Source of the DNA: Dyella sp. 2HG41-7
GTDB taxonomy: Bacteria; Pseudomonadota; Gammaproteobacteria; Xanthomonadales; Rhodanobacteraceae
Assembly: GCF_021390675.1 (NCBI RefSeq)
Contig: NZ_JAJEJV010000003.1
Span: forward strand, 110,293 to 174,292
Direction of reading: 5' to 3'
DNA: 64,000 bases
The translations under genes and the position numbers were made by a program. The notes under the pieces were generated by a model, which ran no database searches, was not told the DNA's origin, and saw only the letters and a program-made list of their open reading frames with translations. Each line of letters starts with the position of its first letter. The first letter of the stretch is position 1. Positions 41,830-56,417 of the stretch are shown here, piece by piece.

Positions 41830-44800
41830 TTGAAAGCAGGAAAGACGTTCAATTATTCGTTGCTGGCGCTGGCGTGTGCAGCGGCGTTGGCTAGTACGAG
41901 TGTGTTTGGGCAATCCACGACAGGTAGTATTGCAGGCCAAGCACAACCGGGCGCAATCGTTACCGTTACGAGCAATACTGGCGTGGTGCGTAAATCCAAC
42001 GTAGATAGCTCCGGTCATTACAGCATCACCAGCTTACCCGTGGGAAATTACACGGTCACGCTTCAGCGCGATGGCGCCACGGTAAGTACGCGCAGCGACG
42101 TACAAGTTGTCGTAAATTCCAGCGCGGATGTTTCGTTCGCCTCGGAGGCCAACGCAAAATCGCTAAGCACCATTTCTGTCACTGCTGCGGCAATCCCTCC
42201 TATCGACGTAACCTCCGTCGACTCGCGCACGGTCATTACCGCCAAAGATCTGGAAAAGCTTCCTATCGGCCGCACCGCTGAAGCGATTGCAATGCTCGCG
42301 CCAGGTGTCGTCGCTGGGAGCAGCTACTTTTCAGGCCCTACGGGCAATCAGTTAGTTTCTTTCGGTGGGGCTTCAGTTTCCGAGAACGCCTATTACATCA
42401 ACGGTTACAACACCACCGACCCACTCAACGGGCTGGGTGGTATTGGACTCCCCTATGGAGCCATCGATCAGCAAGAAATTTTCACTGGCGGCTATAGCGC
42501 AAAGTATGGGCGTTCAACCGGTGGTGTTCTCAACCAAGTGGGTAAACGCGGAACCAATGAATGGCACTTCGGATTCCAAGTCCAGTGGGCCCCAGACTTC
42601 CTTGCCTCCAATCCAAAGAATGTCCGCTACCCAAATAGTCAATTGCCTGATGGCTATCATTACCAAGATCCTAGCCTCCCTGGCACGATCTATAGGTCTC
42701 GCAAAGACAACAAGAGCACGACAACTACTTACGACGCCTATGTGGGCGGTCCGCTAGTTAAGGACAAGCTATTTCTTTTTGCAGCAGTCGAAGCACAAAA
42801 GCAGGACGGAAAATCAACATCGCCCTCTAGCGTGTCGGCGCCCTATAACAACATCTACACCTACAGCACACCCAAGCACTACGTTAAGCTCGACTGGAAT
42901 ATCAACGATAGCAACATACTCGAATTCACGAACATTTCGAATAAGAATTCGTACACCAGCAATGAGTACGCCTACGACTACGTCACAGGCAAGCAGGGGG
43001 CTCTCATTGGTCACGATCTCTGGACCAAAACCGGTTCAGACATCTACATCGGAAAGTTCACGAGCTACATCACCGATGACCTGACCTTTTCAGCAACCTA
43101 TGGCCTGAACAGGGCAATAGATTTCAGCCAAAATCCGGGTGTGGACCCCAGCCTGTCGTATATCAGTGGCGTACTGAATCAGGACCCTAGCATCACTGAG
43201 GGCACGGTCATCGGCAATGACAATACAGTTGGTTACATGAACCCGCCCGATGCAAAGTACCGAAGCCGTGGCTTGCGTCTCGACCTTGAGTACAAACTTG
43301 GCGATCACTTGCTGTCCGCAGGTATCGACAATATCAACAGTTCTGCAATCGACGAAGGACAGGGACAATCCGGCCCAGGGTATTGGTGGATCTACTCGCA
43401 GTCGCGAACTCCGAATAAACCGCTCAGCACGCATTATGGGATTGGCGCTCCGGGTGGTAACGGCTATTACGTCCGCAAATATGTGTACAGCACCGCTACG
43501 AGCATGTCGGTGGATCAAAAGGCCCAGTACATTGAGGACCGCTGGCAAGTCAATGATCGATGGCTGCTGAATATCGGTCTTCGTAACGACCAATTTACCA
43601 ACTACAACAATGTCCATCAGTCTTACGTACACAACACAAACCAATGGGCTCCTCGCCTTGGTTTCAGTTGGGACGTGTTTGGTGATTCCACATTCAAAGT
43701 ATTTGGAAATTTAGGTCGCTACTATCTTGCTCTACCGAACAGCGTCGCAATCCGAGCAGCCTCGGCTTCCACTTACACCTATGAGTACTTCACATATGCA
43801 GGCATCGATCCGGCAACGGGTGCACCTACGGGACTAAAACCTCTCGGCGCGGGCCCCATTTCGGCCAACGGAGAATTCGGCCAAGCACCCGATGCCAAGA
43901 CCGTCGCAGCTACCAACCTTCGCTCCCAATACCAAGATGAGGCGATCCTTGGCTTCAATAAAATGTTGGGTAGCAGCTGGATGTACGGCGCCAAGATCAC
44001 GGTGCGCAAACTGCAAACTGCGATCGACGATGTTTGCGATATGGACGCATTGGCAACCAAAGCGATTGCGCAAGGCATCGATCCGGACAATGTTGTATTC
44101 CCGAATGGCTGCTTGATTTTCAACCCAGGTAGAACTAACACGTTCCTGTTAGCAAACGCCGATGGCAATGGCTATTCCAAAGTTACGATGACTAACAAGG
44201 ACTGGGGTTTCAACAGCGGGGCCAAACGCAAGTACTACGCATTGGACTTGTTCTTAGAGCATCCGTTCGACGGTAAATGGCAAGGACGCATCGACTACAC
44301 ATTTTCGCGCAGCTACGGCAACACCGAGGGGCAGGTGCTCTCCACGATCGGCCAGGACGATGTCTCGAAGACTCAAGATTGGGATTTCTGGCAGCTCATG
44401 GAAGCCAGTAATGGTGTGCTGTCAAACGATCGCACGCATCAAGTCAAAGCGTACGGTGCTTATCAAATCTCGCCTGAGTGGATGGTTTCTGGTTCATTAC
44501 AGGTCGCATCCGGCGCACCAAGGGTTTGCCTTGGCTATTACGCAGGTCCAGGTAGCGAGCTCGACAGCGACCCAGCGGGCTATTATTCCTCCTATCACTA
44601 TTGCAATGGCCAACCCGCACCGCTGGGAAGCCTCGGTCGCCTACCATGGACGAAGACCATCAACCTTGGCGTGACATACCGTCCTTCGTTCGCTGATAAA
44701 AAGCTCGCTTTGAACCTTGATGTTTTCAACGTCCTCAACGAACGCCAGGCAACGGTGCTCGATGCTACGTACGAGACTAGCGCTGGCCCGGGCAACGTCT

Positions 44801-44874
44801 CCAACACCTATGGCATGCCGCTCTATCAGCAACAACCACGATATGTGCGTCTATCGGCCACTTATGATTGGTAA
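41830..44874 (+). CDS. Oar-like TonB-dependent receptor with N-terminal carboxypeptidase-regulatory domain
   Basis: A 1014-residue outer-membrane receptor. A signal peptide (YSLLALACAAALASTSVFGQ) is followed by a 75-residue CarboxypepD_reg-like Ig fold (SIAGQAQPGAIVTVTSNTGV), then TonB box TISVTAA, the plug with VSENAYYINGYNTTDPLNG, GYSAKYGRSTGGVLNQVGKRGTNEW and a long barrel ending SATYDW. The TTG start has GGGAGAGAG upstream. Base composition is visibly lower in GC than neighbours (about 50-55% in sampled lines), hinting at transfer or relaxed selection. Substrate unknown, possibly peptide. Confidence 0.9.
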   Translation: MKAGKTFNYSLLALACAAALASTSVFGQSTTGSIAGQAQPGAIVTVTSNTGVVRKSNVDSSGHYSITSLPVGNYTVTLQRDGATVSTRSDVQVVVNSSADVSFASEANAKSLSTISVTAAAIPPIDVTSVDSRTVITAKDLEKLPIGRTAEAIAMLAPGVVAGSSYFSGPTGNQLVSFGGASVSENAYYINGYNTTDPLNGLGGIGLPYGAIDQQEIFTGGYSAKYGRSTGGVLNQVGKRGTNEWHFGFQVQWAPDFLASNPKNVRYPNSQLPDGYHYQDPSLPGTIYRSRKDNKSTTTTYDAYVGGPLVKDKLFLFAAVEAQKQDGKSTSPSSVSAPYNNIYTYSTPKHYVKLDWNINDSNILEFTNISNKNSYTSNEYAYDYVTGKQGALIGHDLWTKTGSDIYIGKFTSYITDDLTFSATYGLNRAIDFSQNPGVDPSLSYISGVLNQDPSITEGTVIGNDNTVGYMNPPDAKYRSRGLRLDLEYKLGDHLLSAGIDNINSSAIDEGQGQSGPGYWWIYSQSRTPNKPLSTHYGIGAPGGNGYYVRKYVYSTATSMSVDQKAQYIEDRWQVNDRWLLNIGLRNDQFTNYNNVHQSYVHNTNQWAPRLGFSWDVFGDSTFKVFGNLGRYYLALPNSVAIRAASASTYTYEYFTYAGIDPATGAPTGLKPLGAGPISANGEFGQAPDAKTVAATNLRSQYQDEAILGFNKMLGSSWMYGAKITVRKLQTAIDDVCDMDALATKAIAQGIDPDNVVFPNGCLIFNPGRTNTFLLANADGNGYSKVTMTNKDWGFNSGAKRKYYALDLFLEHPFDGKWQGRIDYTFSRSYGNTEGQVLSTIGQDDVSKTQDWDFWQLMEASNGVLSNDRTHQVKAYGAYQISPEWMVSGSLQVASGAPRVCLGYYAGPGSELDSDPAGYYSSYHYCNGQPAPLGSLGRLPWTKTINLGVTYRPSFADKKLALNLDVFNVLNERQATVLDATYETSAGPGNVSNTYGMPLYQQQPRYVRLSATYDW

Positions 44875-44904
44875 TTTCTTAGTGCAAATGCATAAGTAAA
44901 AGCG

Positions 44905-44931
44905 AAGGGTCGGCAATGCCGACCCTTTTTT
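44905..44931 (+). terminator. Strong terminator after the Oar-like receptor
   Basis: A 10-bp perfect stem (44905-44914 with 44918-44927), an AAT loop and a run of six T. It lies 31 bp after the stop codon. Confidence 0.93.
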
Positions 44932-45017
44932 CCATCTGATATTTCGCAGTTGACTTGATTCAAATCACCCCCATTGAGGGTCGTGTCTCCAACACGAATT
45001 GGTACCGGGAAACGGCC

Positions 45018-45671
45018 ATGCCTAAGCCATCTCAGCTAAAAATCGACTTCGTCTCAGACGTCGTCTGCCCGTGGTGCGCTGTCGGCCTGAAGTCGCTGCA
45101 GCAGGCGCTTCACAAGCTGGATGGGGACGTCGCGGCCGACCTGCATTTCCAACCCTTCGAGCTGAATCCGCAGATGGCGCCGGAAGGCGAAAATGTGGCC
45201 GAGCACTTGGCGCATAAGTACGGCAGCACGCCCGAGCAGATGGCCAAAAATCAGGAAGGGATACGCGAGCGTGGCGCCGCGTTGGGTTTCACCTTCAACA
45301 TGGACAAGCGCAACCGCATCTACAACACCTTCGACGCGCATCGTTTGCTGCACTGGGCGGAGTTGGAAGGCAAACAGCTCGCGCTGAAGACGGCCCTGCT
45401 GGAGGCGTATTTCACCCATGGTGAAGACGTCAGCTCCCACGACGTACTCGCGCGCGTTGCCGGCAAAGCCGGTCTGGATGCCGCCGAGGCACGCGACATT
45501 TTGGCGAGCAACCGCTATGCGGACGAGGTGCGGCAGCAGGAGCAGTTTTTCCAATCGCAGGGTATCCGCGCCGTACCGTCGGTGATCGTGAACGGCAAGT
45601 ACCTGATTCAGGGTGGCCAGCCGCCGGAAGTGTTCGAGCAGACCTTGCGGAAGATTGCCGCCGAAGCCTGA
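45018..45671 (+). CDS. DsbA/FrnE-type thiol oxidoreductase
   Basis: A 217-residue cytoplasmic thioredoxin-fold protein. The active site CPWC (VVCPWCAVGLK, Cys at about 18 and 21) and the cis-Pro region GIRAVPSVIVNGKYLIQGGQ fit the DsbA-family FrnE group, including 2-hydroxychromene-2-carboxylate isomerase-like proteins. No signal peptide is seen. ATG 45018 is chosen because the frame above it is unconserved. Confidence 0.88.
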   Translation: MPKPSQLKIDFVSDVVCPWCAVGLKSLQQALHKLDGDVAADLHFQPFELNPQMAPEGENVAEHLAHKYGSTPEQMAKNQEGIRERGAALGFTFNMDKRNRIYNTFDAHRLLHWAELEGKQLALKTALLEAYFTHGEDVSSHDVLARVAGKAGLDAAEARDILASNRYADEVRQQEQFFQSQGIRAVPSVIVNGKYLIQGGQPPEVFEQTLRKIAAEA

Positions 45672-45761
45672 TTCACGCTTCGAAAAGGCCCCTCCGGGGG
45701 AACCGCAGTCGTGCGGGGGACGTGAGACAATGGCGCGCCGCTCCATCCCGCACGATTCAGC

Positions 45762-47474
45762 ATGCTGCGACTCACTGACATCAAACTTCCCCTGGACCAC
45801 GCCGAGGAGGCGCTGGCTGGGGCTATTCGCGCCAAGTTGCACATGGGTGCTTCGGCGGTTCGCGGGTATACGATTTTTCGGCGTGGATACGACGCGCGCA
45901 AACGAGGCGCCATCCAGCTGATTTATACGCTGGATGTCGATGTCGCGGATGAGGCGAAGTTGCTGCAGCGCTTTGCGGACGATCCGCACGTTCGACCGAC
46001 TCCCGATACGGACTACCACTTCGTGGCTTCATTTTCACGCGACGTCCCTGTCGCGGAAAGCGAAAGTCAAAAATCGGACATCCATGGCCGAACTCTTCAA
46101 GAAGAGCGTTCACACCGTCCCGTCGTCATCGGCTTGGGACCCTGCGGCCTGTTCGCGGGCCTGCTGCTGGCGCAGATGGGCCTTCGCCCCATCATTCTGG
46201 AGCGCGGTAAAGCCGTGCGCGAGCGCACCAAGGACACCTGGGATTTGTGGCGCAAGCGCAATCTGCATCCCGAGTCAAACGTGCAATTCGGCGAAGGCGG
46301 CGCGGGCACGTTTTCCGACGGCAAACTCTATAGCCAGATTTCCGATCCCAAGCATTACGGTCGCAAGGTGCTTACGGAGTTCGTGAAAGCGGGTGCGCCG
46401 GAAGAAATCATTTATGTAAGCAAGCCGCATATCGGCACCTTTCGTCTGGTGACGATGGTGGAGAACATGCGCAACACTATCGAATCGCTCGGCGGCGAGA
46501 TTCGCTTTCAGCAACGCGTCGACGATCTTTTTGTCGAAGAGGATGCGGACAGCGTGCGCCATGTTCGCGGTGTCGGCTTGGCGAATGGCGAACAGATTCG
46601 CACCGATCATGTGGTGCTCGCGTTGGGACATAGTGCGCGCGATACCGTTACCATGTTGCACAAGCGCGGCGTTTATCTGGAAGCCAAACCGTTTTCGATC
46701 GGTTTCCGCGTGGAGCATCCGCAGTCGATCGTCGATCAGGCGCGCTTCGGTCCGCAGGCCGGCCATCCGCTACTCGGCGCCGCCGACTACAAACTCGTGC
46801 ATCACTGTCGCAACGGTCGCTCCGTCTACAGTTTTTGCATGTGCCCTGGCGGCACCGTGGTTGCGGCTACCAGCGAACCCGGGCGTGTGGTGACGAACGG
46901 CATGAGCCAATACTCGCGCAATGAACGCAATGCCAACGCGGCCATCGTCGTCGGTATCGAGCCAAGCGATTTCGCGCCGTACGACAACAGCGGCAGCCCG
47001 CTTGCCGGTATCGCATTGCAGCGCGCGCTGGAAAGCCGTGCGTTCGAGCTTGGCGGCGGCACGTATGAAGCACCCGGGCAGCTCGTTGGCGACTTTCTTG
47101 CCGGACGCGTGTCGACGGCATTGGGCGACGTAATGCCCTCTTATAAACCCGGCGTACACCTGACGGACTTGGCGACGGCGCTGCCCGACTACGCGATTGA
47201 AGCGATTCGCGAAGCGATGCCCGCGTTCGATCGCAAGCTAAAAGGTTTCGCAAGACCTGACGCGATATTTACCGGTGTCGAAACGCGTACGTCCTCGCCG
47301 GTACGTATCCGCCGCAACGACGACGATCTGCAGAGCCTCAACACGCGCGGCCTGTTTCCTGCGGGCGAGGGCGCCGGCTACGCTGGGGGCATTCTTTCCG
47401 CAGGCGTCGATGGCATCCGCGTCGCAGAAGCCGTTGCGTTGAGCATCGCGCATCAGGAAGCACATGCTTACTGA
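45762..47474 (+). CDS. NAD(P)/FAD-dependent oxidoreductase (COG2509-like)
   Basis: A 570-residue flavoprotein. An N-terminal region of about 110 residues (YTIFRRGYDARKRGAIQLIY) precedes the FAD Rossmann motif VIGLGPCGLFAGLLLAQMG; FGEGGAGTFSDGKLYSQI and the C-terminal GLFPAGEGAGYAGGILSAGVDG are characteristic of this uncharacterised dehydrogenase family. The reaction is unknown. It overlaps dinG by 11 bp, so the two are translationally coupled. Confidence 0.88.
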   Translation: MLRLTDIKLPLDHAEEALAGAIRAKLHMGASAVRGYTIFRRGYDARKRGAIQLIYTLDVDVADEAKLLQRFADDPHVRPTPDTDYHFVASFSRDVPVAESESQKSDIHGRTLQEERSHRPVVIGLGPCGLFAGLLLAQMGLRPIILERGKAVRERTKDTWDLWRKRNLHPESNVQFGEGGAGTFSDGKLYSQISDPKHYGRKVLTEFVKAGAPEEIIYVSKPHIGTFRLVTMVENMRNTIESLGGEIRFQQRVDDLFVEEDADSVRHVRGVGLANGEQIRTDHVVLALGHSARDTVTMLHKRGVYLEAKPFSIGFRVEHPQSIVDQARFGPQAGHPLLGAADYKLVHHCRNGRSVYSFCMCPGGTVVAATSEPGRVVTNGMSQYSRNERNANAAIVVGIEPSDFAPYDNSGSPLAGIALQRALESRAFELGGGTYEAPGQLVGDFLAGRVSTALGDVMPSYKPGVHLTDLATALPDYAIEAIREAMPAFDRKLKGFARPDAIFTGVETRTSSPVRIRRNDDDLQSLNTRGLFPAGEGAGYAGGILSAGVDGIRVAEAVALSIAHQEAHAY

Positions 47475-49566
47475 TGCGCTGAAAGAAAGCATTCGCGATG
47501 CGTATGCGCGCGTGAGAGACGGTCTCCCCGGCTTCCGCTCGCGCGCGGCGCAGACGCGCATGATCGCGGAAGTCGCCAGAGCGCTGTCGCAAAGCGGCGG
47601 CGCGGCGGTGATCGAAGCACCCACCGGTACCGGTAAGTCGATGGCGTATCTGGTCGCCGGCGTCGAAGTCGCGCGCGCGATGAAAAAGAAACTGCTGATC
47701 GCGACTGCCACCGTGGCGTTGCAAGAACAGTTGGTCGAACGCGATATTCCGCTTTACCTGAAGCTCAACGGGCGCGAAATGAAAGTGGCGCTCGCCAAGG
47801 GACGCGGCCGCTATCTGTGCCCACGCAATCTGCGCATGGCAGGCAACAGCCTCGGCGAAAGCGGTCAGATGGGCCTGGGTCTCGATACGGATCTCGCCCT
47901 GTGGAGCAAGCCCCCTGCAGAGCGCGACAAGCAGGTGCTGCGCAAACTCACCGACGCGTTCGATCACCAGACGTGGAACGGCGACATGGATGCCGCGCCC
48001 GAAACGCCCGGCGACATGCTGCGATCGATGATTACGACAAGCGCGGGCGGATGCACGGGACGTCGCTGCGGTCACTTCATGGGATGCCCGTTCTTTGCCG
48101 CGCGACGCGCGGTGGCGGACGCGGACATCGTCGTCGCCAATCAAGACTTGGTGCTCTCCGACCTCACCATGCCCGGCGACGACGACAACTGGGGCGGCGT
48201 AATTCTGCCAAAGCCCGACGAAACGCTTTACGTGTTCGACGAAGCGCATCATATGCCCGGCAAAACGATCGACCGGGGCGCGTCCGAGGTGCCGCTCGGC
48301 ACGGCCGTTCGGCAAATCAGCCGATTGGCGCGTCAGGTGCATGCTGCTTATTCGCTGACCGATAAAGAAGTCATTGGCAAGCTCACGCTCGATGCCGGCG
48401 ATTTGAAGCTGCAAGAGTTGAGCGACGGCATGGAAGAACTGGAAAAGGAAATCCGTCAGTCGTGGATGCCGGATCCGGCCGAGATCGAACCGATGTATCG
48501 CGGATCGCTAGGGCAGCTGCCGGACAACTGGGTGCATCACGCCACCGTGCTCGACGTCGCTGCATCCGAAGTACAACGATGGCTGACGACGGTGCGGCGC
48601 GCCGTCACCGAAATGAGCGAAGGCGGCCCCACCCAAGAAGCCTTGTCGCGTGAACTTGGCATGGCGCTCGAACGCATCGATCGCCAAGTACGCACCTGGC
48701 GTGCGTGGTCCAACGACGATCCAGAAAACGCGCCGCCGCTCGCGCGCTGGGTCACGCTATCGAACGATCAGCAATTGGTTTGTCACGCATCGGCCGTTTC
48801 CGCCGGCGCGCTCTTGCGCAATATTCTTTGGGACAATGCCAGCGCATCGATCATGACATCGGCCACGTTGAGCGTCGGTGGCAATTTCCGCGGCTTCGCC
48901 GATGCGGTGGGTCTGCCGGACGAAGCTGTTACCGTTAGCCTGCCTTCGCCGTTCGATTTGGGAGCGCAGGCGCGCCTTGAAGTTCCAGCGTTTTCTGCGT
49001 TGCCGGACGCGCGCGAACAACACGCGCGCGAGGTGACTGACTGGCTCGCCGAAAATTTGGATTGGGACGCCGGCAATCTCGTGCTGTTTACGTCGCGCGC
49101 GAAATTGGAACGCGTGCTGCAGTGCTTGCCTATCGACAAGGTGCGCAAAGTTCGCGCACAAGGCTCGCTCGGCAAAACGCAGTTGATTGCCGAGCACGTC
49201 GCAGCTATCGAAGGTGGCAAAGGCAGCACCTTGTTCGGACTCGCTTCGTTCGGTGAAGGCTTGGACCTGCCAGGCAAGCTGTGCGAAACGGTGGTGATTA
49301 CCCAACTTCCGTTCGCCGTACCGACGGACCCGGTCGGCGCCACCTATGCCGAATGGCTGGAATCACGCGGACGCAATCCGTTTCTGGAAGTCGCCGTTCC
49401 GGAAGCAACGCGCTTATTGATTCAATATTGCGGTCGTTTGATTCGCAGCGAAACGGATCGCGGTCGCATCGTGTTACTGGATCGTCGAGTCGTTACACGG
49501 CAATACGGTGGCCAGATGCTAAAAGCACTTCCGCCGTTCCAGCGCGTAATCGAGCGCACCTCGTAA
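47464..49566 (+). CDS. dinG: ATP-dependent DNA helicase DinG
   Basis: A 700-residue XPD-type superfamily 2 helicase. Walker A EAPTGTGKS (about 54-62), a 4Fe-4S cluster region with cysteines in YLCPRN and GGCTGRRCGHFMGCPFF, DEAH box in VFDEAHHM, and motif VI QYCGRLIRSETDRGRI. DinG unwinds D-loops, R-loops and G-quadruplexes and is often SOS-induced; I see no clear LexA site because the gene starts inside the preceding one. Confidence 0.95.
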   Translation: MLTDALKESIRDAYARVRDGLPGFRSRAAQTRMIAEVARALSQSGGAAVIEAPTGTGKSMAYLVAGVEVARAMKKKLLIATATVALQEQLVERDIPLYLKLNGREMKVALAKGRGRYLCPRNLRMAGNSLGESGQMGLGLDTDLALWSKPPAERDKQVLRKLTDAFDHQTWNGDMDAAPETPGDMLRSMITTSAGGCTGRRCGHFMGCPFFAARRAVADADIVVANQDLVLSDLTMPGDDDNWGGVILPKPDETLYVFDEAHHMPGKTIDRGASEVPLGTAVRQISRLARQVHAAYSLTDKEVIGKLTLDAGDLKLQELSDGMEELEKEIRQSWMPDPAEIEPMYRGSLGQLPDNWVHHATVLDVAASEVQRWLTTVRRAVTEMSEGGPTQEALSRELGMALERIDRQVRTWRAWSNDDPENAPPLARWVTLSNDQQLVCHASAVSAGALLRNILWDNASASIMTSATLSVGGNFRGFADAVGLPDEAVTVSLPSPFDLGAQARLEVPAFSALPDAREQHAREVTDWLAENLDWDAGNLVLFTSRAKLERVLQCLPIDKVRKVRAQGSLGKTQLIAEHVAAIEGGKGSTLFGLASFGEGLDLPGKLCETVVITQLPFAVPTDPVGATYAEWLESRGRNPFLEVAVPEATRLLIQYCGRLIRSETDRGRIVLLDRRVVTRQYGGQMLKALPPFQRVIERTS

Positions 49567-49579
49567 GCGCTATACGTTC

Positions 49580-49617
49580 AATAAAACAAGTCCGACCTAT
49601 GACGGACTTGTTTTATT
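49580..49617. terminator. Bidirectional terminator between dinG and the small peptide genes
   Basis: A 15-bp perfect stem (49580-49594 with 49603-49617), an 8-nt loop and T-rich flanks on both strands. It ends dinG transcription and that of the convergent minus-strand small genes, which stop at 49635. Confidence 0.92.
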
Positions 49618-49634
49618 TCGTCCGATAGCCGCTA

Positions 49635-49820
49635 TTACATGGGGCAATACCAGGGATACGGAGGATCGACGGGGCACATTGGCAGAGGGTCTTGCTGCAC
49701 GGTTATCGCGGAACTGCTTACTGGCTCGCTCGTTCCTGCCGAAACAGAGCCGCACAAGCTCAAAGCGACAACACAGCCGAACGCAAAACCGCTCCACACT
49801 GACTTGCTCTTTGTCTGCAT
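49635..49820 (-). CDS. Small secreted peptide A with C-terminal Cys pair
   Basis: A 61-residue precursor: a signal peptide (positive MQTKSKS, hydrophobic GFAFGCVVALSLCG, cleavage near SVSA), then about 33 residues ending in PMCPVDPPYPWYCPM, with C49 and C59 spaced C-x9-C. AAGAAG lies upstream of the ATG. It shares design, size and strand with the next two genes, which are tandem. Unknown family; a disulfide- or thioether-closed small extracellular or periplasmic peptide is possible. Confidence 0.65.
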   Translation of the reverse strand: MQTKSKSVWSGFAFGCVVALSLCGSVSAGTSEPVSSSAITVQQDPLPMCPVDPPYPWYCPM

Positions 49821-49977
49821 ATAACTTCTTCTTAGATTAAGTTAATTGCTAGCCAAGGCTGTAGCGAAAAAGCAGCCCAGCCAGGCTACCCGACCATTGT
49901 CGTGAATCGAGCACATCATGTATTTGATTCACTACAGGCGCGCTTGGAACATTGAAAGCCGGGCAGTAGAGCTCTCG

Positions 49978-50169
49978 TTAGCTAAGTGGCGGCGGGCAGA
50001 CGACAACCCCGTTCTGAACCACGCAGGGGTACATTAAAATGCCGATATCGCTCGAATCGTTAACTTGAGAACCCGTTGCTTGTGCGACGGACGTACCGAA
50101 CAAACTCATTGCCATGACGCAACCCATTACCAAGCTTCTGCACAGCATTTTTGTGATTGTCTTCTTCAT
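49978..50169 (-). CDS. Small secreted peptide B with C-terminal Cys pair
   Basis: A 63-residue precursor with signal peptide MKKTITK + MLCRSLVMGCVMAMSLFG, cleavage near VAQA, and a tail MYPCVVQNGVVVCPPPLS with C49 and C58 (C-x8-C). A strong AAGGAG ribosome site lies 8 nt before the ATG. It lies 157 bp upstream of gene A on the minus strand. The hydrophobic-core pattern with an internal Gly-Cys is like gene A, supporting common descent. Confidence 0.7.
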   Translation of the reverse strand: MKKTITKMLCRSLVMGCVMAMSLFGTSVAQATGSQVNDSSDIGILMYPCVVQNGVVVCPPPLS

Positions 50170-50344
50170 AAGCGTTCTCCTTGTTGATTACTTGCACGGC
50201 GCTTCAGCCGCTTAATTCACAGCAAAACAGCGAGCATTCAAGTCTCGCAACTACGGCGTCGCACGGGCGATCGGGAATGTGGCAGGGGATGTCTAACGTT
50301 CCAAAACATCTCAGGCATGCCCCAACGCACAGCATTGTTGCGGT

Positions 50345-50551
50345 TTAGAGCTTTTGTATCGGCGTACAATTGATAAGCGGAATGTATGAGTTGCAGGATG
50401 ACAGCGTGGTAACGGGCGCAGTGGTAGCGCCATTCGAGCCACCCGTCTGCGTATCCGTCGCGTGCGCAGCCGGAGTGACAGTCAGGCCAGCAGTGAGGAT
50501 GAAGCCCAGAGCGAGGCCGCCACGCGTCAGCTTTGTGATTATGTTTTTCAT
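50345..50551 (-). CDS. Small secreted peptide C with C-terminal Cys pair
   Basis: A 68-residue precursor: MKNIITKLTRGGLALGFILT, cleavage near AAHA, then a T/G/S-rich linker and SSCNSYIPLINCTPIQKL, with C53 and C62 (C-x8-C). AAAGGAAT precedes ATG 50551; the longer frame upstream lacks a signal. It is 175 bp upstream of gene B. Its N-terminus (MKNIITK) closely resembles that of gene B (MKKTITK). Confidence 0.7.
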   Translation of the reverse strand: MKNIITKLTRGGLALGFILTAGLTVTPAAHATDTQTGGSNGATTAPVTTLSSCNSYIPLINCTPIQKL

Positions 50552-50821
50552 ACATATTCCTTTATTAAATTTGGTAACCGCGCATCCAATTCCGATTTTC
50601 TCGAAGGGCACGATTGAATGACGCACGCCTAAGACTGACGACAAACGGAACCTTCACTTTCATGCAAGACGGCGCGGAAGTCGCCTCTGCAGAAACTCTA
50701 GCCTGACTCTATTCGCTCAAGCAGAGACAGCATTGTCGTCACGAACATGAAAGAAACGATAGTCAGCCTTATGTTTACTACAATGTAAGAAATAGCCGTC
50801 TTCCACCGAGCGACTACGTAC

Positions 50822-51382
50822 ATGACGATCATTCACCTGCGCGAATGCCCCGCCCTACCGTGGAAAAACGGCATGGGACGCACGCGCGAATTGGCCATCT
50901 ATCCTTCCAGCGCAGGCATGGATGACTTCATCTGGCGCGTAAGCGTGGCGGAGGTAGATAGCGCTGCGCCGTTTTCGTCGTTCGCCGGTGTCGATCGTCA
51001 TATCGCATTGCTGGAGGGAGCCGGTTTCACAATGACGCTGGACGATGGTCGTTCCCATGCGCTCACGATGCCATTTGCGCCATTTGCGTTTCCAGGCGAA
51101 GCCGCCGTGACGATCGCGCTGCACGGCGGACCGACGCGCGATTTCAATCTCATGCTGCGCCGATCGAAGGTTCGTGGCGAATTGGTAACCTGGGAAGATG
51201 CAGGTCGACAGGTGGTGGATGACGCGGTAGCGCTGATTTACTGCGCACGAGGGCAGATCGATACCTCCGATGGGCGCATGCAGCCAAGCGATGCATGGCT
51301 GCCCACGCCATTGACCGGTCGTGTCACGCTCGGCCCAGGCGCATTGGCACTTGTCGCGCGGGTGCAATCGCTGGGAAATTAG
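50822..51382 (+). CDS. HutD/Ves-family protein
   Basis: A 186-residue cupin-fold protein of the HutD/Ves family (PF05962). ALPWKNGMGRTRELAIYP, FIWRVSVAEVDSAAPFSSF and DRHIALLEGAGF are the family blocks. HutD members sit in histidine-utilisation clusters, Ves in E. coli is cold-induced; no hut genes are here, so the role is open. It is divergent from the small peptide genes. Confidence 0.9.
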   Translation: MTIIHLRECPALPWKNGMGRTRELAIYPSSAGMDDFIWRVSVAEVDSAAPFSSFAGVDRHIALLEGAGFTMTLDDGRSHALTMPFAPFAFPGEAAVTIALHGGPTRDFNLMLRRSKVRGELVTWEDAGRQVVDDAVALIYCARGQIDTSDGRMQPSDAWLPTPLTGRVTLGPGALALVARVQSLGN

Positions 51383-51466
51383 CCTTGGCTCGCCGTCCGG
51401 CTAAGATCGGCTCGACAACAGCGTATGCTGAAGACAAACCGGCCAACTCCATCATGAGGTTTCCCC

Positions 51467-52045
51467 ATGTTTGTGCTGATTCTCGGTTTGATTGTTTTTC
51501 TCGGTTTACATTCCGTCCGCATCGTGGCGGACGATTGGCGCGTGCGACAGATTGAACGCATCGGCCTGAATCGCTGGAAAGCGTTTTACTCTATCGTCGC
51601 CATCATCGGTTTCGTGCTGATCTGCGTGGGATTCGGCATGGCGCGCCAGCAGCCGGTGCTGCTCTATATCCCGCCCTTGTGGCTGCGGCATCTCAACGGA
51701 TTGTTCATGTTGGTCGCGTTGATCCTGTTCGCGGCGGCGAAGGTGCCGAACAATCACATCAAAGCCAAGCTAGGTCATCCGCAGGTGTTGGCGGTGAAAA
51801 CCTGGGCGTTCGGTCACTTGCTCGCGACCGGCATGTTGCACGACGTGGTGCTGTTTGCGCCGTTTTTGCTATGGGCGATCGTGCTGTATCAAGTCTCTCG
51901 GAAACGGGATCGCCGCAACGGCACCACTTATCCTCCGGGTACCGCGAAGGGCACCGCCATTGCGGTGGCGGCGGGCGTGGCGATCTGGGCATTGTTCGCG
52001 TTCTGGCTACATACGCTGCTGATCGGCGTGAATCCGATGCATTGA
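51467..52045 (+). CDS. NnrU-family membrane protein
   Basis: A 192-residue inner-membrane protein with about five helices. IVFLGLHSVRIVADDWR, NRWKAFYSIVAIIGFVLI and NNHIKAKLGHPQVLAVKTWAFGHLL are typical of NnrU, first linked to nitric-oxide reductase clusters but widespread in organisms lacking denitrification. No nitrogen-oxide genes are nearby. Confidence 0.9.
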   Translation: MFVLILGLIVFLGLHSVRIVADDWRVRQIERIGLNRWKAFYSIVAIIGFVLICVGFGMARQQPVLLYIPPLWLRHLNGLFMLVALILFAAAKVPNNHIKAKLGHPQVLAVKTWAFGHLLATGMLHDVVLFAPFLLWAIVLYQVSRKRDRRNGTTYPPGTAKGTAIAVAAGVAIWALFAFWLHTLLIGVNPMH

Positions 52046-52070
52046 GGGGTGTCTCCAGTCATCTTCGTCG

Positions 52071-52111
52071 GAGGGACCGCCTTGCGCTACAGTGATGGCG
52101 GTCCCTCTTTT
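52071..52111 (+). terminator. Terminator after the NnrU gene
   Basis: An 11-bp perfect stem GAGGGACCGCC/GGCGGTCCCTC (52071-52081 with 52097-52107), a 15-nt loop and a TTTT tail. It lies 25 bp after the stop codon and just ahead of the next start at 52123. Confidence 0.8.
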
Positions 52112-52122
52112 CGGGTGATGCC

Positions 52123-52320
52123 ATGGTCGGTTTTCTGCTCTGGTTGCTGTTGCTGATCTTCTGCTGGCCGCTGGCGCTGCTGGCGCTTGTGCTCTATCCC
52201 ATCGTGTGGCTGCTGTTGCTGCCGCTACGTTTGGTCGGCATCACGGTATCTGCCGTGTTTGCTTTTCTCGGCGCGGTGCTGATGCTGCCAGCACGGGTAT
52301 TGCGCGGACGTCCGATTTAG
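52123..52320 (+). CDS. Small hydrophobic membrane protein
   Basis: A 65-residue protein, almost wholly hydrophobic (FLLWLLLLIFCWPLALLALV), with two to three helices and a basic tail RVLRGRPI. Unknown family. The ribosome site is weak. It ends 16 bp before the methyltransferase gene and may share its message. Confidence 0.6.
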   Translation: MVGFLLWLLLLIFCWPLALLALVLYPIVWLLLLPLRLVGITVSAVFAFLGAVLMLPARVLRGRPI

Positions 52321-52336
52321 AACATTCGGCGGCACC

Positions 52337-52936
52337 ATGACTGGCAAGCCTTATTCGCCCGCGAGCGAGCGCAATCGCGAACCGATTCTGGCGGTGCTTC
52401 GCACATGGTTTGCCGATCGACGGCACGTGCTGGAAATCGGCAGCGGAACCGGCCAGCACGGCGTGCATTTTGCGGCCGCGATGCCGCACCTTGAGTGGCA
52501 AAGCTCGGATCGCGAAGAAAATCTCGCTGGCTTGCGACAGTGGCTCGACGAAGCCGCGTTGCCCAACACACCGCCGCCGTTGGAATTGGATGTAACGGAT
52601 ACGTGGCCCAACGATCACTACGACGCGATCTTCAGCGCCAATACGCTGCATATCATGGCGTGGCAGGAGGTCGAGCGCATGTTCGCCGCGTTGCCATCGG
52701 TGACCGTCGCCGGCGCTTGCCTTGCCATCTACGGCCCTTTCAATGTGGACGGTCGCTTCACCAGTGACAGCAACGCAGCATTCGATCGCGAGTTGAAGAT
52801 GCGTGGCGCGCACATGGGAATTCGCGATACGGCCGTTGTCGATGCGCTGGCCGCTAGCATTGGCTTCGAATTGATCGATGATGTTGCAATGCCAGCGAAT
52901 AATCGCTTGCGCTTATGGAAACGGCGAGGAACATAG
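52337..52936 (+). CDS. DUF938 SAM-dependent methyltransferase
   Basis: A 199-residue class I methyltransferase-fold protein of the DUF938 family. KPYSPASERNREPIL at the start, SAM motif VLEIGSGTGQHGVHFAAAMP, WQSSDREE and FSANTLHIMAWQEVE fit closely. The substrate is unknown. It starts 16 bp after the small membrane gene. Confidence 0.88.
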   Translation: MTGKPYSPASERNREPILAVLRTWFADRRHVLEIGSGTGQHGVHFAAAMPHLEWQSSDREENLAGLRQWLDEAALPNTPPPLELDVTDTWPNDHYDAIFSANTLHIMAWQEVERMFAALPSVTVAGACLAIYGPFNVDGRFTSDSNAAFDRELKMRGAHMGIRDTAVVDALAASIGFELIDDVAMPANNRLRLWKRRGT

Positions 52937-53118
52937 TCGTCCGGCGCCGTTTGCCTGTTAGCACCATGTGATCGATAAATGAGTGCCGCTCTCCCCGCGA
53001 CATGGAGACTTTAAGCGATCCGTCCCGACGGCCCGCGCATGGCTTCGTGCATGATTACCCCTTGCATTTGCGCACCAGCGCGTCACGATGAGCGCATCGC
53101 GCCAGGTGGATTCGAACC

Positions 53119-53520
53119 TTGCAAGCTGTCGACACCCTCACTCCCTGCCCTTGCGGCAACGACGCCGGTTACGCGCGTTGTTGCGGCCCGCTGCACGAGG
53201 GCGCCGTCGCGGCAACGGCCGAAGCGCTGATGCGTTCGCGCTACAGCGCCTATGTGCTCAAGCGCGAGGATTATCTGCTGACCACCTGGCACCCCAGCAC
53301 ACGGCCGGCCAGCCTCAAGCTTGCCGCACAGCAACCCGCACCCACCTGGCTGGGCCTGGATGTGAAGCATCACCAGGAAGACGGCGAACACGCCGTGGTG
53401 GAGTTCATTGCTCGTTTGCGCTACGGCGGAGGCAAAGCGCAGCGCATGCATGAAATCAGTCGCTTCGTGCGCGAGCAAGGCCGCTGGTATTACGTGGACG
53501 GCAGGTTCCCTGAAGGCTGA
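53119..53520 (+). CDS. YchJ-family protein (SEC-C Zn motif, NTF2-like)
   Basis: A 133-residue protein of the UPF0225/YchJ family. The N-terminal zinc-binding SEC-C motif [19 protein letters not shown] precedes an NTF2-like domain with [22 protein letters not shown] and the C-terminal [11 protein letters not shown] 53119 is the start, with AGGTGG about 9-14 nt upstream; no ATG is in frame. It overlaps the convergent NRDE gene by 31 bp. Confidence 0.85.
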
Positions 53521-54272
53521 ATCGAGAGTTCGCTTTCGCCTTCGAATACGCCCGATGGTCCAAAACGGCGTTCGACGATAAGCCCTCGGCCGTCGTAACC
53601 GATCGCCACAATGGTGCTGGCGCGCGTGCCGTATTGTTCGCCACGAATAAACGCCGCCGACAACCAACGCTCGCGCTCCAAGCCAACGCCGGTATCGGGC
53701 AACAGCTCGTCCGACGCCTGCTGTTCGTCGGCCAATGCCTGGAACAGCGGCGCAAAGTCGACTTCATGGCCCGCTTGCATCCAGGCATCCAAACGTTGCA
53801 TCAACGCGTGCGTCTTGGGCCACGGCGTATTGAAATCGGCGTTGGACAACCCGTGTATGCCAGGCTCGATCAACTGCGCGCGCGCCGACGGTCGATTACC
53901 CAGATAGAAACCGTGTTCGGTATCGAAAGTCAGCAGATTGAAGGGTCGATAATTCGGCGCCGCGGGAAGCAGCGCACGCGCATGGCGTGTGGCGTCGTCG
54001 GGCCCGATCAAATAATCCGTCGCCAGCAATCCGCGCGATGTGCCGTGCTGCGGATCGCGCGGATCGCGCACATTGGTGACCACGCAGCATCGTCCCGCCT
54101 CGGTGACGCCCAGCCACGTGCCGCCCGCTTCAAGATCGCGTCCGCCGATGATCGGCAGATCGGTCCAGCGTGACAGAGGCGCGCTGGGACGTGCGTGAAA
54201 TTCGTCGCGATTGCCGGCGAGCAACAGACGCCAACGCGGATGGATTTGCCAAGCAAAGGCGATCAGGCACAT
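53490..54272 (-). CDS. NRDE/TANGO2-family protein
   Basis: A 260-residue protein of the NRDE family, related to eukaryotic TANGO2. MCLIAFAWQ (Cys2 candidate nucleophile of an Ntn fold) and [25 protein letters not shown] and [14 protein letters not shown] are the diagnostic blocks. Function unsettled; TANGO2 has been linked to heme or lipid handling. It precedes no clear operon partner, the next minus gene lying 26 bp upstream of it in transcription. Confidence 0.92.
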
Positions 54273-54298
54273 GAAAGGCTTCCACTCCTATTGTTGCG

Positions 54299-55168
54299 TT
54301 ATGCCGCGCGACGGCGCACCGCATCGGCCCAACGAGCGGCGACACGCGGCGACGTCATGCAAACGGCCTCATCGGTGACGGTGGTCACCGCGCGTTCCAA
54401 CAACTGAATATCGGCTTCATGCTGACGCGCCACATGCGGGTCCTCGAAGAAGATCGCGCGATGGCAACGTCGCTCCAGTACCAGATCGGCAATCTGCGCA
54501 TCGCCGCCCATCGGTCCGCTCTTAAAGCGATCGACCCATTCTTTGTCTTGCGGCCAACCGCGACTCCACGCCAGCTCGTTCAATTGCTGACCGGTCGTAC
54601 CGGTGCCGACGCGCCGCGCGAAACGCGAGAGTACGTCGAAGTGATCGGACGCGTACGCCATCATTTGCGGTTTCATGGCATCGTGCGCAATCAGCGCAAT
54701 GGTTTGTTTTTCCAACGCGTACAAATCGTCAGCGCCGGGATCGGGTGCGAATCCCGCTTGAATCCGCTCCATCTCGACCCAGTCGCGCGCCGACGCCACG
54801 GTGGAAATAAACGGCTTCTGATGAATCACGCATTGGCGCTTCAACGCCACCGCCTCGGGAAACGTGGACGACGGGTCGACCGGATTGATCAGATAGATCG
54901 CGCCGTCCAAGGTGCGATTCGGCTCGGGCATGCCGACTACTTCCGCCACCAACTTCATCAAGCCGCCTTCATGGCCGTACGGATAGCGCACCAAGCCCGC
55001 GTAATCCTTGAGATAACCGACGCGGACGATCGCCGCATAAGTGCGCCCCACCGCATGCAAATGCAAGTTCAGTTCGCGAATCCCGTGCTCGCATGCCCGT
55101 AGCCAATGAAATAACGCCGCGTTGTCCTGGTCGTGATGAAACGCGTTGGCGGCAAGGCCCATGCGCAT
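54299..55168 (-). CDS. mgsA: Methylglyoxal synthase with internal duplication
   Basis: A 289-residue protein, about twice the length of E. coli MgsA (152). The C-terminal half (155-285) has the active-site pattern: GTGTTGQQL (188-196), GPMGGD with D223, and H250/D253 in RQHEAD. The N-terminal half (1-135) aligns along its length (GRTYAAI, GHEGGLMKLV, LDGAIYLINPVDP) but lacks the aspartate and histidine, so it looks catalytically dead. MgsA converts dihydroxyacetone phosphate to methylglyoxal. Start ATG 55168 has AGAGG upstream. It follows the SpmAB gene by 19 bp, so they are one operon. Confidence 0.85.
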   Translation of the reverse strand: MRMGLAANAFHHDQDNAALFHWLRACEHGIRELNLHLHAVGRTYAAIVRVGYLKDYAGLVRYPYGHEGGLMKLVAEVVGMPEPNRTLDGAIYLINPVDPSSTFPEAVALKRQCVIHQKPFISTVASARDWVEMERIQAGFAPDPGADDLYALEKQTIALIAHDAMKPQMMAYASDHFDVLSRFARRVGTGTTGQQLNELAWSRGWPQDKEWVDRFKSGPMGGDAQIADLVLERRCHRAIFFEDPHVARQHEADIQLLERAVTTVTDEAVCMTSPRVAARWADAVRRRAA

Positions 55169-55187
55169 GTGATATGCCTCTTTGTAA

Positions 55188-56417
55188 TTAACCAAAAAAC
55201 CAGTAACACACGCCAATCGACGCCAGCACGCCGGTGAGATCGGCCAACAATGCACACCCGACCGTGTGCCGAACGCGACGAATGCCGACCGCGCCAAAAT
55301 ACACGGCAACGACATAAAACGTAGTCTCCGTGCTGCCCTGTATCGTCGCCGCGACCAGGGCCGGAAAGCTGTCGACGCCCGAATGATGCATGGTTTCGAT
55401 CAACATGGCGCGTGCCGCGCTTCCCGAAAACGGCTTGACCAGCGCCGTTGGCAATGCATCCACGAAACGCGTATCCAGACCTGCATGCTGCGTAAGCCAG
55501 CGCACGCCGTCCAACGCGAAATCCAGCGCCCCCGATGCGCGCAACACGCCCACCATGCACAACATGGCGACGAGGTACGGCAGGATTTCCTTCGATACGT
55601 CGAAACCCTGCTTGGCGCCGTCGATAAAACTCTCGAATAACGGCACGCGCTTATACGCGCCAGCGCACAAGAACACGATGATGATGCCGAACAAAGCAAG
55701 ATTGCCAAGTAGCGACGAAAGCGAGGCAAGCGCGGCGGCCGTCAGTGAGGCAAGAAAGGCGAGAAAACCGCCCAGCAGCAATCCACCACCCAAAAACCAT
55801 GCAAGCACGACCGGGTCCCATAGCCGCAGTCGCTGCATATAGGCGACCGACAACAGGCCAACGAGATTCGACGCGAAGTGCGCCAGCAGAATCGGCAGAA
55901 AAACCAAGGTCGGATCGTGCGCACCAGCCTGCGCGCGATACATAAATACTGTCACCGGCAACAATGTCAGCGACGATGCGTTGAGCACAAGAAATAGAAT
56001 CTGCGCATTGCTGGCCGTAGTTTCGGACGGATTGAGCGTTTGCAGTTCGCGCATCGCGCGCAAGCCGATCGGTGTGGCGGCGTTATCCAGTCCGAGCGCA
56101 TTGGCGGCGAAGTTAAGCGTGATCAATCCGATCGCCGGATGTCCCCGCGGAACGTCCGGCATCAGCCGCGCGAACAACGGCCCCAACCAACGCGCCAACT
56201 GATCCACCAGACCTGCTTTCTCGGCGATACCGAGAAAGCCCAGCCACAAGGTCAACGTGCCGAACAACAGCAACATCACCTTGACCGATAGATCGGCCAT
56301 CTCGAACAGCGAACCAACGATGGCGGCAAACACAGTTTCGTCGCCGCCGACGAGCCAGCGAAGCAGCGCCGCCAAGGTGGCGGCCATAAAGAAGCCGAAC
56401 CAAAGGCGGCTCAGCAT
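55188..56417 (-). CDS. Fused SpmA-SpmB nucleoside-recognition membrane protein
   Basis: A 409-residue inner-membrane protein made of two Gate/nucleoside-recognition domains, corresponding to SpmA (1-200) and SpmB (about 220-409) joined in one chain. LNFAANALGLDNAATPIGLRA and the second-half GSTETTFYVVAVYFGAVG are hallmarks. In Firmicutes the two are spore-maturation proteins, but this organism is Gram-negative and the name carries no sporulation meaning. It may transport a small metabolite. It is the first gene of a unit with the methylglyoxal synthase. Confidence 0.88.
   Translation of the reverse strand: MLSRLWFGFFMAATLAALLRWLVGGDETVFAAIVGSLFEMADLSVKVMLLLFGTLTLWLGFLGIAEKAGLVDQLARWLGPLFARLMPDVPRGHPAIGLITLNFAANALGLDNAATPIGLRAMRELQTLNPSETTASNAQILFLVLNASSLTLLPVTVFMYRAQAGAHDPTLVFLPILLAHFASNLVGLLSVAYMQRLRLWDPVVLAWFLGGGLLLGGFLAFLASLTAAALASLSSLLGNLALFGIIIVFLCAGAYKRVPLFESFIDGAKQGFDVSKEILPYLVAMLCMVGVLRASGALDFALDGVRWLTQHAGLDTRFVDALPTALVKPFSGSAARAMLIETMHHSGVDSFPALVAATIQGSTETTFYVVAVYFGAVGIRRVRHTVGCALLADLTGVLASIGVCYWFFG

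Follow-up and report, generated by a model that had tools for sequence, protein, structure and literature searches.

We tentatively favour the reading that three short, neighbouring open reading frames of Dyella sp. 2HG41-7, here called A, B and C, are genuine genes, each with its own start, and form a single fast-diverging, lineage-restricted family, whose products would be exported by the Sec route as peptides of ~32-37 residues with one disulfide and an extracytoplasmic partner. They lie within a window (the whole stretch of DNA that was analysed) of 64,000 nucleotides, in an insert separating two genes that are contiguous in most genomes of the genus, a setting that the initial annotation of the cluster did not have in view. 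Annotation readily misses tiny secreted peptides when no gene of known function lies nearby, and an orthologue at the same site with the cysteine pair, together with three local copies, offers a small test case for the acquisition and diversification of looped peptides.

Gene structure and predicted peptides

All three genes are on the minus strand, and the coordinates, strand, lengths and cysteine positions first given for them were borne out. Gene A (49635..49820; 61 codons) has a predicted cleavage site VSA/GT and the pair C49-x9-C59; gene B (49978..50169; 63 codons) has predicted cleavage at AQA/TG and C49-x8-C58, enclosing the loop VVQNGVVV; gene C (50345..50551; 68 codons) has predicted cleavage at AHA/TD and C53-x8-C62. 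Each starts with ATG, and the ribosome site claimed for each can be read from the sequence as a Shine-Dalgarno-like site on the minus strand, weak for A (AAGAAGAAG, 49825..49833, in the arrangement AAGAAGAAG-TTAT-ATG, 4 nt from the start codon), strong for B (AAGGAG, 50177..50182; AAGGAG-AACGCTT-ATG, 7 nt) and fair for C (AAGGAA, 50557..50562; AAGGAA-TATGT-ATG, 5 nt). An ATG frame of 61 residues antisense to A (49639-49824, plus strand) covers almost all of it, while the antisense frames listed at the orthologous D. lipolytica gene (see below) have TTG starts and are not coextensive with it.

The four precursors (A, B, C and the D. lipolytica orthologue) all begin with charged residues, continue into a hydrophobic core and carry a predicted [AV]xA cleavage site at about residue 28-31, signal peptides being assigned by hydropathy and a cleavage rule that yield a heuristic score. 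Cleavage there would leave mature parts of ~33 (A), ~32 (B) and ~37 (C) residues, whose sole cysteines would be the C-terminal pair; additional cysteines fall within the signal peptides of A (C16, C23) and B (C10, C17) and none within that of C. A lipoprotein assignment was rejected, the signal-peptide cysteines of A, B and the orthologue lacking, by eye, a preceding [LVI][ASTVI][GAS]. Net charges of the mature parts, counted from sequence, are about -3 (A), -2 (B), 0 (C) and +1 (D. lipolytica).

A perfect 15-bp inverted repeat with an 8-nt loop, likely a terminator, lies between the ends of A and its neighbour dinG (49580..49617; fold z -5.09, matched by none of 200 shuffles), and a terminator-like hairpin with a T run follows B (49878..49896, minus strand; fold z -2.75, matched by 2 of 200 shuffles). 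Two terminator-like hairpins with a T run were counted in the region against a chance expectation of 1.8, no sigma-70-type promoter was found there (1.3 expected by chance), and an Rfam search gave no match. The spacers of 157 nt (A-B) and 175 nt (B-C), together with the hairpins after A and B, suggest separate transcription units. Separate genes with their own ribosome sites, spacers and hairpins would also allow separate control, as would suit a narrower form of the favoured explanation in which the looped peptides would serve as signals or surface ligands that the producer itself or a nearby organism senses; the 12 neighbouring genes scanned, however, include no receptor, kinase or regulator, and a signal shared across the genus would normally be better conserved, so that we hold this form to be distinctly improbable.

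An insert between dinG and hutD

The cluster occupies an insert of 1255 nt (49567..50821, ~51% GC) flanked on one side by a dinG-like helicase gene (47464..49566, plus strand; Pfam Helicase_C_2), which we take to be dinG, and on the other by a hutD-family gene (50822..51382, plus strand; Pfam HutD). The flanking hutD was found in 15 of 16 genomes of the genus, the source genome counted, and in 13 of these 15 it abuts dinG (0-3 nt between match ends), the distance between match ends being 1259 nt in the source genome and 686 nt in D. lipolytica NBRC 111473 (G001). Among named genomes, Dyella species give the nearest matches to the source hutD. Both flanking genes are present in 31 of 43 named loci, many of which come from the same genomes as the genus-wide count so that the two counts overlap; the hutD match starts -4 to 38 nt from the dinG stop in 29 of the 31, larger gaps occurring in D. 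lipolytica (682 nt) and Rhodanobacter sp. 7MK24 (479 nt). The latter gap (L186:3022-3500) was rejected as a third insert, being palindromic DNA without such a peptide, and it implies that the junction took up different DNA in different lineages. A further Dyella-type dinG-hutD locus (HutD 76%, DinG 90% identity) was met in CAJCJD010000043.1 (L180), titled 'Candidatus Eremiobacteraeota', a title that probably misnames the organism.

Insert GC is 51% in both the source genome and D. lipolytica, and that of the surroundings is 57-65% in most intervals at 45-49 and 51-56 kb, but a gene at 42-45 kb is also at 49-55%, so low GC alone is no proof of foreign origin. Beside C, upstream of it and overlapping the start of hutD, is a strongly hydrophobic 44-residue ORF (50698-50832, minus strand), with no Pfam match and no counterpart among ORFs of at least 40 residues at the D. 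lipolytica locus. The earlier statement that no transporter, protease or modification gene adjoins the peptides held up, none of the RiPP or bacteriocin kind appearing among the 12 neighbours scanned with Pfam (41830-56417; 10 with matches, 2 without). A DUF938 methyltransferase-like gene and one for an FAD-dependent protein lie nearby, separate from the cluster, and a DsbA-like thioredoxin-fold protein without an evident signal peptide (44955-45671, plus strand; Pfam DSBA) is encoded ~4 kb away.

The orthologue of A in D. lipolytica

D. lipolytica has one such peptide gene, at the same dinG-hutD site and in the same orientation as A (L064:1501-1692, plus strand; the same gene is in L181). It has a ribosome site, and visual inspection shows a GC-rich hairpin downstream. 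Its product matched A at E 7e-5 in a single-peptide search (1 of 100 genomes) and shares with it 38% identity over 60 aligned residues, the cysteine pair (C-x8-C) and the CP being kept. No shuffle of 5000 scored as well for the whole precursors, whereas the mature parts alone show a modest likeness (99 of 5000 as good). The same two species share 90% protein identity in DinG and 74% in HutD, with a dinG DNA divergence of ~19%; set against these values, the 38% indicates that A changes much faster than its flanks.

Codon-aligned nucleotide identity between A and the orthologue (0.506) exceeds, narrowly, that of all 500 codon-shuffled controls (mean 0.384, maximum 0.500). Differences per codon position run 45/38/65%, against 59/52/73% in the controls, an order that is little evidence by itself because the shuffled sequences show it too. 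Homologues with conserved cysteines, whose absence had been named as a ground for dismissing the peptides, thus exist for A, at the same locus, but for B and C none turned up in 233 genomes of the family. As judged from sequence, the D. lipolytica relative suggests that at least one of the three, A, is a real, fast-changing gene.

How the two species came to share a filled site admits several accounts. A dinG tree joins D. lipolytica to G011, G008 and G010 (94/83) and places the source genome elsewhere; constraining both species to one clade is weakly rejected by this gene (AU p 0.027), and presence of the insert takes 2 changes on the tree. Flank identity of the pair is 0.79 over the 300 nt near the dinG end and 0.77 over the first 300 nt of hutD (13 of 14 dinG rows used, that of G005 being out of register and ignored), no higher than in the general run of other species, and a recent transfer between the two was accordingly rejected. 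With no recent tract and a single clade weakly rejected, the insert may reflect an old insertion followed by losses, an old exchange or repeat insertion. At both filled sites dinG ends with TAA then G, and at three empty sites compared there is an ATGA overlap, a difference that would fit a single insertion and is little evidence for it.

Relations among A, B and C

The proposal that B and C look like paralogues was supported, since no shuffle of 5000 aligned as well and their score lies above those of all 47 other signal-peptide ORFs; they are 31% identical, with both cysteines in register. A is linked to the pair by way of B (equalled in 3 of 5000 shuffles, a score again exceeding those of all 47 other signal-peptide ORFs of the same genome), but A and C are not directly alike (1523 of 5000). 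As whole precursors, the orthologue resembles B weakly (92 of 5000) and C not at all (1116 of 5000). What A, B and C have in common is chiefly the signal peptide and the first mature residues; the mature parts alone are not significantly alike (A-B 1372, B-C 2269 and A-C 1256 of 5000 shuffles as good), nor is that of the orthologue like that of B (4399) or C (1214). The claim of a family therefore rests on the chain through B and on a common build.

These figures bear on the suggestion that the three are recent orphan genes that have yet to gain a settled function, being short ORFs that carry export signals and have persisted in the insert by chance. Presence in only two species, the varying number (one against three) and the scant conservation of the mature parts agree with it, yet A keeps its frame, length, signal and cysteine pair across ~19% dinG DNA divergence and the pair is kept in three neighbouring copies, and we consider this origin unlikely.

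A home-made filter for short, signal-peptide-like ORFs with a two-cysteine C-terminus, ATG and a Shine-Dalgarno-like site was run on 454 kb of the 4.26-Mb genome, made up of the window and a further 390 kb. Its counts are descriptive and give no clean p-value, because the filter was devised after the peptides were known: 146 of 3207 short ORFs were signal-peptide-like, 11 distinct ones added a two-cysteine C-terminus, and ATG together with a Shine-Dalgarno-like site occurred in just three of the 11, namely A, B and C, the corresponding numbers for reversed sequence being 136 of 3048, 1 and 0. A second pass over the 454 kb found 13 short ORFs with ATG, Shine-Dalgarno site and signal, of which five had exactly two mature cysteines and only A, B and C a C-x8/9-C spacing. 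A similar filter on 229 kb from 31 related loci returned a single short secreted ORF, which is the orthologue in D. lipolytica. That the three frames are chance ORFs and no genes at all would accord with the want of orthologues for B and C and the almost exact overlap of A by an antisense frame, but the orthologue match (E 7e-5), the filter counts, the shuffle tests and the scores against 47 signal-peptide ORFs all speak against it and make it highly improbable.

Searches for wider relatives

Single-peptide searches of 100 genomes each gave matches at E <0.001 only to the genes themselves and, for A, to D. lipolytica. A profile of A with its orthologue matched 39 of 233 genomes of the family at E <= 0.05, only the source genome and D. 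lipolytica falling below 0.001, and 5 of 398 genomes of the order at E <= 0.002; the three new ones at order level were rejected, their frames encoding no short secreted peptide with a C-terminal cysteine pair. A joint B and C profile matched 22 of the 233 family genomes at E <= 0.01, but outside the source genome no match extends past profile position 51 of 70, so that all miss the cysteine pair, and one, in L228, is the signal peptide of a longer protein truncated where the contig stops, which resembles a TonB-dependent receptor. In many genomes these searches scored a subset of the first-pass candidates (at most 27 per genome for the A profile in the family, 15 in the order and 26 for B and C), so that distant members may be missed; within that scope no convincing full-length relative was found elsewhere in the 233 family genomes (two profiles) or the 398 order genomes (one profile). 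Searches of viral contigs, phages and plasmids gave no relative.

The initial annotation knew of no described family of this build, and agreement came from Pfam, NCBIfam, PHROGs, PADLOC and the PDB, none of which gave a meaningful match; the best family scores came from an NhaA model that matched B at E 0.054 and from a PHROG that matched the signal region of C at E 0.1, the D. lipolytica peptide being included in only part of the family and PDB searches. A profile search of PDB chains was empty at E 10 and AlphaFold2 gave a poor model (pLDDT 54), both from a four-row alignment in which the cysteines of B were out of register; in a mature-only alignment it was those of A. A Bowman-Birk-like inhibitor loop was rejected, spacing and register not fitting. 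Titles and abstract openings in the open literature, with subscription papers and preprints outside that scope, mention no such peptides in Dyella or Rhodanobacteraceae.

A proposed looped peptide directed outside the cytoplasm

On the favoured reading, Sec would export each precursor and signal peptidase I would trim it to the predicted length, leaving a Ser/Thr/Pro/Gly-rich stretch followed by a C-terminal loop of 8 or 9 residues that one disulfide would close in the oxidising periplasm. The source genome has a DsbB gene (E 1.1e-38), which makes a periplasmic disulfide plausible. The loop of B, VVQ-NG-VVV, would suit a hairpin turn. The loop sequence varies while the signal peptide, the length, the two cysteines and usually a proline after the second stay, a pattern that would be expected if the loop offered its side chains to an extracytoplasmic partner. 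The likeliest use, we infer, is in interactions with other microbes or with the environment, through competition or as a secreted ligand, with no linked immunity or export gene. That the peptides form a Dyella-restricted, previously undescribed family, with a fixed precursor frame, a fast-varying and interacting C-terminal disulfide loop and tandem expansion at one insertion site, is a bolder claim, possible but doubtful. The peptides are short enough for synthesis, so activity is directly testable.

A second narrower form of the favoured explanation is a Sec-exported, bacteriocin-like peptide whose loop harms close relatives, immunity being unlinked or arising from target differences. The net charge of the mature parts (about -3 to +1) is unlike that of cationic antimicrobial peptides, and no conserved immunity or exporter gene was found beside the cluster; the 44-residue hydrophobic ORF next to C could be counted in favour but lacks a Pfam match and, among ORFs of at least 40 residues, a D. 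lipolytica counterpart. Peptides used in competition would be expected to be small, to diverge fast and to occur patchily, as these do, and class IIa microcins can carry disulfides too (PMC10233263). On this evidence a bacteriocin-like role is not probable.

Comparison with known systems

Membership of the class II microcins was rejected because of the leader and the lack of the expected adjacent genes: that class has a leader of 15-18 residues ending in GG or GA and an adjacent immunity gene for a membrane protein of 51-216 residues (PMC10233263). The four precursors share no GG or GA at 15-18, no such immunity gene lies beside the cluster, only the 44-residue hydrophobic ORF, and the 12 neighbours (41830-56417, Pfam) include no PCAT exporter or MFP gene. 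A RiPP precursor assignment was also rejected, no modification enzyme or leader peptidase of that kind appearing among these neighbours. Microcin V has a disulfide near its C-terminus. Class IIa microcins, of the microcin V type, are alike in being small exported Gram-negative peptides with a possible disulfide (PMC10233263). They differ in size (~5-10 kDa, against 32-37 residues), in their double-glycine leader of 15-18 residues where A-C have a hydrophobic Sec-type signal, and in their adjacent immunity, PCAT and MFP genes, none of which was found beside A-C in their chromosomal insert.

Sec-dependent class II bacteriocins of the enterocin P type have a Sec signal peptide, a disulfide and a small mature peptide, all of which are predicted here. 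Those bacteriocins come from Gram-positive bacteria, whereas A-C have a Gram-negative host and no immunity gene found beside them, and differ in having no YGNGV motif and in placing the cysteine pair at the C-terminal end.

Thanatin and the 'Rana box' peptides are short, cationic animal peptides with a C-terminal disulfide loop. A-C are about neutral to acidic and show no sequence relation to them in the PDB-chain profile search (E 10), but share the short length and, by prediction, the C-terminal disulfide loop; if the claim of a Dyella-restricted family is true, that family would be, in its mode of evolution, a bacterial equivalent of toxin or defence peptide families in animals.
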